A stretch of 64,000 bases of DNA from Paraphaeosphaeria minitans (Eukaryota > Ascomycota > Dothideomycetes > Pleosporales > Didymosphaeriaceae): the NCBI GenBank assembly GCA_015832175.1, contig WJXW01000001.1:1054001-1118000 (forward strand), in the 5' to 3' direction. A program made the translations under genes and the position numbers. Under the pieces are notes generated by a model. It searched no databases and was not told the DNA's origin. It worked only from the letters and a program-made list of their open reading frames with translations. This document shows positions 34,560 to 35,441 of this stretch, in pieces. Numbering within the stretch: the stretch's first letter is position 1; every line of letters starts with the position of its first letter.

Positions 34560-34592
<33 letters not shown>
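34560..34592. repeat. GATA tetranucleotide microsatellite, about 8 copies
   Basis: Perfect GATA repeats located about 80 bp beyond the 3' end of the tRNA gene. Confidence 0.95.
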
Positions 34593-34661: not shown

Positions 34662-34666
34662 CAAAA
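34662..34666 (-). terminator. RNA polymerase III terminator of the tRNA-Pro gene
   Basis: A TTTTT run (minus strand) begins six bases after the discriminator base of the tRNA. Confidence 0.8.
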
Positions 34667-34672
34667 AGAGAT

Positions 34673-34813
34673 GGGTCTTACCGCGATTCGAACGCGGGGC
34701 CTCTCGCAAATGTGCTCAGGTAACAGCCCTAAGCGAGAATCACTGAAGAATTGGTTAGCTACTGTTAAGCGAATGTAAAGCTGTTGTACTTACTACCACT
34801 AGACCATAAGACC
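34673..34813 (-). tRNA. tRNA-Pro(AGG): tRNA-Pro(AGG) with a canonical intron and an extra D-loop insert of spliceosomal form
   Basis: Read on the minus strand. Acceptor arms GGTCTTA (34813-34807) and TAAGACC (34680-34674) pair perfectly, and the discriminator is C, as for tRNA-Pro. The T arm is CCGCG-TTCGAAT-CGCGG. The anticodon arm is CTCGC-TTAGGG...T-GCGAG, anticodon AGG, with an 18-nt intron (34726-34709) after base 37. That intron contains CCT, complementary to the anticodon, as in normal nuclear tRNA introns. The A box TGGTCTAGTGG is intact and a TTTTT terminator follows. Between the D-loop A and TGAT lies a further 51 nt (34793-34743) that starts GTAAGT, has GCTAAC 11 nt before the end, and ends TTCAG. 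Without it the D arm reads GTCTAGTGGTATGAT, exactly the usual tRNA-Pro sequence. Confidence 0.88.
34743..34793 (-). other. Spliceosomal-type intron inside the tRNA-Pro D loop
   Basis: 51 nt: GTAAGT donor, GCTAAC branch, TTCAG acceptor. This is the same size and signals as introns in nearby protein genes (51 nt with TACTAAC in the AKR gene; 48 nt with GCTAAC in the C2H2 gene). It lies just downstream of the A box, leaving pol III signals untouched. Whether it is spliced is unknown. Confidence 0.7.
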
Positions 34814-35441
34814 AGATCTTATTTGATGTGAGCATCCCAAATTTGTAAAAATATATAGCTAATTAAAACATCTCCATGTGTTCCGAGATCAACAATTAGT
34901 CACAATCCAATTATGGAATCGACCGTTGTTAGCGCCTTAACCGTTGGCCGAGGCCATCTGGCAGTATGCGTAGGAGAACCCACTCCCCCGAGATCCACAT
35001 GCCCATGCCGAGCCAAGGGACGCCAATCACCAACACTACTTAGAACATGAGCCACGCGTTCTCCCAATCGTACAGCATCAAGATACCTACGCAACTGAAG
35101 ATCAGATGCCTGGGTAACCTTTAAGATTTAGTGATAAGCACCATCGCACACTCAATCAATTAGTGCTGTTTTTAGCAGTATTTAGGACCATTTTATCTTT
35201 ACTGTTGCTGCGATCAAGCTTGCATAGCTATTTATTAGATTCCTCGCGTAGCTCGACATTTGTTCAGCACTTGTCGCACGCGCGGGATAAAATCGTGACC
35301 TCGAACCTCTACAGGCCGAAACGGTGCTCCCTGGAGTAGCTTCGGTGGAAATAATTATCGACAAATGACGTCGTGCGGAAAACCTTCCGACACAGACCAC
35401 CCACCCTGCACCCCATCTGAGTGACTTACACCAACGTCCAG
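34814..35441. other. Intergenic upstream of tRNA and kinase relic
   Basis: Contains the tRNA 5' flank and the promoter side of the kinase relic. A weak tRNA-like fragment near 34910-34960 is discussed among rejected items. No gene called. Confidence 0.45.

Follow-up and report, generated by a model that had tools for sequence, protein, structure and literature searches.

Predicted spliceosomal introns in at least 19 tRNA genes of Paraphaeosphaeria minitans, among them a tRNA-Pro(AGG) gene that also carries an ordinary tRNA intron

What interrupts the tRNA-Pro(AGG) gene at 34673..34813 of the window, and what would remove the interruption? The window is the whole 64,000-nucleotide stretch of Paraphaeosphaeria minitans DNA that was analysed. 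Its HIR1 gene product matches that of Didymosphaeria variabile best (92%), followed among named species by Pseudopithomyces chartarum (85%) and Bimuria novae-zelandiae (84%), with metagenome proteins ranking in between; D. variabile and P. chartarum are classified in Didymosphaeriaceae (Pleosporales), which makes that family probable for the present fungus. Outside some algae, nuclear tRNA introns are taught as the work of one endonuclease at one position, and spliceosomal introns are taught as a matter of mRNA with U6, U3 and rDNA as rare exceptions. The gene and all of its parts lie on the minus strand, with the mature 5′ end at 34813 and the discriminator C, counted as part of the gene, at 34673. 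Exon 1 (34794..34813, tRNA positions 1-21), with box A at about 34796-34806, is followed by a 51-nt GT-AG insert of the spliceosomal type at tRNA positions 21/22 (34743..34793). The insert begins with a 5′ splice-site-like GTAAGT (34788..34793), contains a branch-site-like CTAAC within AGCTAAC (34754..34758), the fourth base of which, an A, is 12 nt from the insert 3′ end, and terminates in a 3′ splice-site-like TTCAG (34743..34747). The remainder of the tRNA 3′ of the insert (34673..34742) includes an ordinary 18-nt tRNA intron after base 37 (34709..34726) and the T loop with box B (GTTCGAATC, 34685..34693). Upstream is a TATATAT (34851..34857), in the same range as the TATA of 54 of 63 intact tRNA genes of the genome, and downstream a T5 run resembling a pol III terminator (34663..34667). 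A GATA tandem repeat is located at 34561-34592, about 80 nt past the gene 3′ end.

Scans of the entire window with ARAGORN (bacterial code) and Rfam (gathering scores) returned zero tRNA calls. Unspliced, the gene scored 22.7 bits against the Rfam cut-off of 29 and was read by ARAGORN, wrongly, as tRNA-Val. Removal of the 51-nt block restored the ARAGORN call of tRNA-Pro (agg) i(37,18), confirming the initial annotation, which had described a GT-AG block in addition to the normal intron at 37/38.

As that annotation had proposed, the tRNA-Pro(AGG) copies of the genome were compared, the search covering 47.45 Mb in 30 contigs of the same fungus. Three Pro(AGG) loci were found, the window gene on contig C1 and one each on C5 and C7. 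The C5 gene was uninterrupted, the block being missing, and differed from the spliced window gene at one of 89 bases, within the 37/38 intron. The C7 gene carried a 49-nt insert at a site identical to that of the window gene; the spliced forms of the two were identical over 89/89 bases, and their inserts agreed at 41 of 51 columns. The boundaries of the insert are independent of any GT-AG assumption because the uninterrupted C5 paralogue fixes the cut, and the sole cut that gave back the C5 context in the window gene was GT..AG, 51 nt apart. At the insertion sites tested against insert-free counterparts, a GT..AG cut was permitted at 7/7 and exclusive at 2, with the position numbers of the inserts assigned by eye and 5 of the 7 cuts slidable by 1-4 bases. 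Given 1, 4, 5, 3, 5, 1 and 2 cuts available at the respective sites and a probability of 1/256 for each, the chance of 7/7 was estimated by hand at approximately 1e-14, a figure in which the branch sites are not yet counted.

At least 19 tRNA genes with GT-AG inserts, at 12 sites, were found in the genome. These were Ser(CGA) on C4 at 3/4, where the acceptor stem is split after base 3; Leu(CAG) on C10 at 10/11; Val(TAC) on C6 at 15/16; Arg(TCG) on C3 at 18/19; Pro(AGG) on C1 and C7 at 21/22; Ala(CGC) on C7 at 25/26; iMet on C1 at 38/39 and on C9 and C17 at 46/47; Asp on C3 and Arg(ACG) on C16, both at 52/53; His on C1, C2 and C6 at 53/54; and Gly(GCC) on C3, C5, C12 and C13 at 60/61, where the T loop is split. 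The initial annotation had also suggested a search for such genes, and the 18 found in addition to the window gene strengthen its spliceosomal reading of the block. The sources of the genes were the Rfam tRNA family, an iMet query, two T-arm patterns, of which many, though not all, of the matches listed were read, a joined tRNA query, and a pattern combining a branch site with a T loop. For the Rfam family 58 matches were listed, the best 62 of 1307 candidates having been scored. Seven of the 19 interrupted genes were among these 58, four above the cut-off and the three His genes below it, and the other 12 were absent from the matches listed, partly since only the best 62 of 1307 were scored. 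For comparison, 63 genes were taken as intact; the genome holds more, so that the 19 genes are a minimum from which a fraction cannot be derived. The Arg(ACG) gene on C16 was found by prediction, using the pattern CTAAC 5-12 bases before AG plus a T loop, which picked out three places: the known Asp gene, the new Arg(ACG) gene and C1:4694245. The reversed control of this pattern gave 11 matches, and the pattern alone is therefore unspecific. A query of eight tRNA sequences found no candidate in the genome, and two scans of viral contigs gave no match. The census is incomplete, with Phe, Trp, Tyr, elongator Met and some Val, Leu, Pro and Arg genes unseen.

All 19 inserts had GT at the start and AG at the end, and their lengths ranged from 49 to 68 nt (median 52). 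The 5′ hexamers were GTAAGT (6), GTGAGT (5), GTAGGT (3), GTATGT (2), GTACGT (1), GTAAGA (1) and GTAAGC (1), and the 3′ ends CAG (14), TAG (4) and AAG (1). The branch motif was CTAAC in 15, CTGAC in three and CTTAC in one, thus CTRAC in 18/19, with the branch A 9-13 nt from the 3′ end in every insert. GT...AG ends with the fungal 5′ splice-site consensus and a CTRAC near the 3′ end, the features of U2-type introns, are therefore present. In the window itself, GTAAGT..CTRAC..YAG gave eight matches from six start places, one of them the tRNA-Pro insert, versus 0.30 in shuffles; the remaining matches were taken for putative mRNA introns. The spliceosome would fit the ends, branch site, spacing and length of the inserts, and we consider it very probable that at least 19 pol III tRNA genes of this genome, the window gene among them, harbour U2-type spliceosomal introns.

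The strongest argument for real splicing, which hinges on the completeness of the assembly, is the lack of intact iMet and His genes. At each of the three loci identified with the spliced iMet query the match was interrupted at base 37 or 45, and the assembly contained no end-to-end match (3/3 candidates scored). Three loci were likewise identified with the spliced His sequence within the joined query; here the match stopped at the T-arm break, and no intact His gene was present among the best 40 of 44 candidates scored. Since all located iMet and His loci are interrupted, the inserts in these tRNA genes are almost certainly removed. Provided that the assembly is complete, neither initiation nor His decoding could proceed without that removal.

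Paralogues sharing an insertion site were compared in exons and inserts. The four interrupted Gly(GCC) genes share one mature sequence, which is also that of the intact copy on C8, and their inserts are pairwise 56-63% identical (30-35 of 54-57 aligned columns). The exons of the iMet genes on C9 and C17 are identical at 71/71 positions and the inserts at 34 of 53 columns; with the C1 gene included, three iMet genes yield one identical mature tRNA via two different sites. In the His genes the exons plus the 37/38 intron agree at 74-75 of 78-86 columns and the inserts at 47-59 of 62-66, a weak contrast, as the inserts are hardly less conserved than the exons. The His inserts (L038, L039, L040) keep a long common stretch (GGCCCTCTC...CAACG) and are more conserved than other same-site inserts. 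Between interrupted genes and their intact paralogues, compensatory double changes were found at 5:68 and 10:25 of Ser and at 29:41 of Arg(TCG), with strands set by eye. Counted over the acceptor, anticodon and T stems of the first 15 genes, 252 of 255 pairs were formed, 15 of them G-U; in this count the Pro anticodon stem was shifted by one pair, and it pairs in either register. All three failures were one 27:43 anticodon-stem mismatch common to the His genes. When spliced, all 19 forms were read as tRNAs by ARAGORN, 15 with the expected isotype and four (Ser, His on C6, Val and Gly on C5) with a wrong isotype or none. Of the unspliced forms, ARAGORN found no tRNA in 12/19 and a wrong one in 5/19, and called tRNA-Met in two, both iMet. 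Promoter and terminator signals and, but for the His mismatch, complete stems after splicing, as expected of functional tRNA genes, were thus found across the 15 genes examined, and the correct isotype in 15/19.

The signals flanking the interrupted genes were those of intact tRNA genes. A TATA at -70..-20 was present in 14/14 interrupted genes with enough upstream sequence and in 54/63 intact genes, against 2/14 and 4/63 in a control stretch, and a T4 run occurred within 45 nt of 15/15 interrupted and 62/63 intact genes. The four Gly genes, excluded from both counts, have a T4 9-21 nt downstream. The inserts themselves contain one T4 run and no T5, versus 3.0 and 0.8 in shuffles (P 0.16 and 0.43), a scarcity that fits pol III and is suggestive, but not significant. 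Insert sites avoided boxes A and B no more than random sites did (15 genes). Box scores were lowered by the inserts in Leu(CAG) (box A) and, in part, in Val (box A) and His (box B), and in the Gly genes the insert falls within the T loop and alters the end of box B. The T loop of iMet makes a poor box B. Each iMet gene (L059, L065, L067) has a box-B-like sequence, GTTCGAACC, GTTCGATCC or GTTCAATCC, some tens of bases downstream, and the U6 gene (L147) likewise has a box-B-like sequence downstream. From the promoter and terminator signals we infer that the interrupted genes are transcribed by pol III.

Spliceosomes act mostly on pol II transcripts, and the introns might be real while pol II makes the tRNAs, either as separate units or as part of host transcripts, giving the spliceosome its usual capped substrate. 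Against this, the TATA range and the T run are the same as in intact tRNA genes, and exon 1, leader aside, is as short as 3 nt in Ser and 10 nt in Leu. Furthermore, a pol III RNA that is spliced is known, the U6 snRNA of fission yeast, whose gene has an mRNA-type intron (PMC10484740). Synthesis by pol II is thus very unlikely. The introns described here resemble that of U6 in that a small, structured fungal RNA made by pol III is interrupted by a spliceosomal intron (PMC10484740), and differ from it in affecting tRNA, in many isotypes and at 12 sites versus one gene type. The only U6 gene found in the present genome is intronless, so that U6 offers no second case of pol III splicing there. By the title of Canzler et al. 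2016, U6 introns reportedly occur repeatedly in fungi.

Under transcription by pol III, the interrupted pre-tRNA would be made from the upstream TATA, box A and box B and end at the T run, as the conserved signals suggest. The spliceosome would then recognise GTRNGT, CTRAC and YAG and join the tRNA exons, and the tRNA endonuclease would next remove the 37/38 intron where present, as in Pro(AGG). Spliceosomal removal probably precedes the other processing steps, because the inserts sit inside arms that are read by RNase P and the endonuclease.

How the introns arose is a separate matter. The initial annotation suggested a recent gain through intron-multiplying elements, and introner-like elements are known in Dothideomycetes (PMC4457414); like the inserts described here, they are short spliceosomal introns, and they come from the class to which the present fungus belongs. 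A 14-mer, GTAAGTTCAATCAA, starts both the Leu insert (C10:238846) and the iMet insert on C17 (C17:1062563), and hints at copying between tRNA introns. When one insert per site was compared, seven of 66 insert pairs reached P 0.05 (3.3 expected) and 14 reached 0.1 (6.6 expected), the best P being 0.0015. However, none of the 66 pairs passed multiple-test correction, the 14-mer has exactly two copies in 47 Mb and is absent elsewhere in the genome, and the window gene plus insert as query found only the three Pro loci. Unlike introner-like elements, no multicopy insert family was thus present in what was searched (window gene query, shared 14-mer and 66 insert pairs). The same-site Gly and iMet inserts must moreover be old, because they are deeply diverged between paralogues. 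The suggested recent gain is therefore unsupported, and we give introner-like elements recently multiplying through the genome little more than a marginal chance. To judge by the few weakly similar pairs beyond expectation, some inserts may share a faint ancestry, and reverse splicing could have brought introns into tRNA precursors. The history that we regard as likely is one of at least 12 separate insertions across the tRNA repertoire, some so old that little but the splice signals has stayed alike, in a lineage in which the spliceosome would be an essential tRNA-processing enzyme and iMet and His would depend wholly on spliceosomal removal from pol III precursors.

Ectopic tRNA introns can also be pictured as substrates of the tRNA splicing endonuclease, cut via bulge-helix-bulge motifs, as proposed for Cyanidioschyzon merolae. 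The tRNA-Ile introns of that alga are at 12/13, 37/38 and 53/54, the last being the His site of the present genome (PMC9602550), and the insert of iMet on C1, at 38/39, adjoins 37/38 and is read by ARAGORN as an anticodon-loop intron. None of the 12 insert sites, as assigned by eye, is at 37/38 itself, 38/39 being the nearest. When the strict motif was scored in the 14 genes other than the Gly genes and Arg(ACG), its core, a helix of four pairs flanked by two three-base bulges, failed in 13/13 scorable genes (0-3 pairs; Ser exon 1 is too short), and the alternative register failed in 14/14 genes (1-3 pairs). Nor would the endonuclease explain GT, CTNAC and AG at fixed spacing in 19/19 inserts. 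Removal of the inserts by this enzyme is accordingly highly improbable. The nucleomorph of Guillardia theta shares with C. merolae and the present fungus tRNA introns outside 37/38, but the accessible parts of PMC9602550 and PMC3978253 tie the introns of these two to the bulge-helix-bulge motif and tRNA endonuclease and describe no GT-AG or branch-site signature. Many Guillardia tRNA introns have no defined bulge-helix-bulge motif (PMC3978253).

The initial annotation also allowed that an unspliced gene of this kind would be a dead tRNA gene; on that account the introns would have entered spare copies that have ceased to function. Intact paralogues are indeed present for Pro, Asp, Ala(CGC), Arg(TCG), Arg(ACG), Ser(CGA) and Gly, and Val(TAC) has a divergent uninterrupted relative on C17. 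No second copy of Leu(CAG) was seen among the best 40 of 44 candidates scored with the joined query, and its codon may be readable by other Leu tRNAs. This alternative is contradicted by the zero intact iMet or His genes found in the genome, by exons that stay fixed while the inserts diverge, by the three compensatory stem changes and by the retained promoter and terminator signals, and it is highly improbable. The relaxed constraint expected of a tRNA pseudogene was not observed, given the identical mature forms of Gly (4/4), iMet (3/3) and Pro (2/2) together with the compensatory changes in Ser and Arg(TCG). Self-splicing group I and II introns have a catalytic RNA core of hundreds of bases, far larger than the inserts, all of which are 49-68 nt; the Rfam scan at gathering scores gave no group I/II match in the window, and the other inserts were judged by size.

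Spliceosomal introns, the reading preferred here, are known in other structured RNAs. As of 2017, frequent interruption by introns was known among small structured RNAs for U3 and U6 alone (PMC5832005). The present genes resemble fungal U3 snoRNA genes in that canonical spliceosomal introns interrupt an RNA that is structured and non-coding, and differ in that tRNA is not on the list of interrupted RNAs given in the accessible part of that paper. Ascomycete rDNA likewise has spliceosomal introns in nuclear non-coding RNA (as cited in PMC11889510), those being in rRNA genes and the present ones in single-isotype tRNA genes. In the open-licence literature, searched by titles and the starts of abstracts, a scope outside which most subscription papers lie, no earlier report of spliceosomal introns in nuclear tRNA genes was found among the papers listed. 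If the reading is true, two intron systems meet in one precursor, that of Pro(AGG), and translation itself depends on the spliceosome. The need of the spliceosome for a cap or pol II, the minimum exon length, the entry of introns into new genes and the supposed immunity of tRNA genes to spliceosomal introns are now testable. Because few of the interrupted genes were among the Rfam matches listed or were given the right isotype by ARAGORN when unspliced, such introns of tRNA genes may be unseen, not rare, in other fungi.

Several other tRNA-like loci were observed. Four (L094, L113, L116 and L124) have odd anticodons, fair acceptor, D and T arms, and inserts of about 100 nt that lie in the anticodon arm. 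By eye, a GT-AG insert was not evident in any of them, and the family was left out of the count. A repeat ending in GTTCGAGCCCTTTTTACCACAACA occurs at many places and may be the terminus of a transposable element that resembles a T arm. A cluster of tRNA matches at C3:2840217-2853194, mitochondrial-looking by eye and inside a 4.3 Mb contig, would be either mitochondrial DNA inserted into the nuclear genome or a join made during assembly. At L063, an apparent tRNA-Ile 3′ half is located upstream of a degenerate Glu(CTC)-like tRNA.
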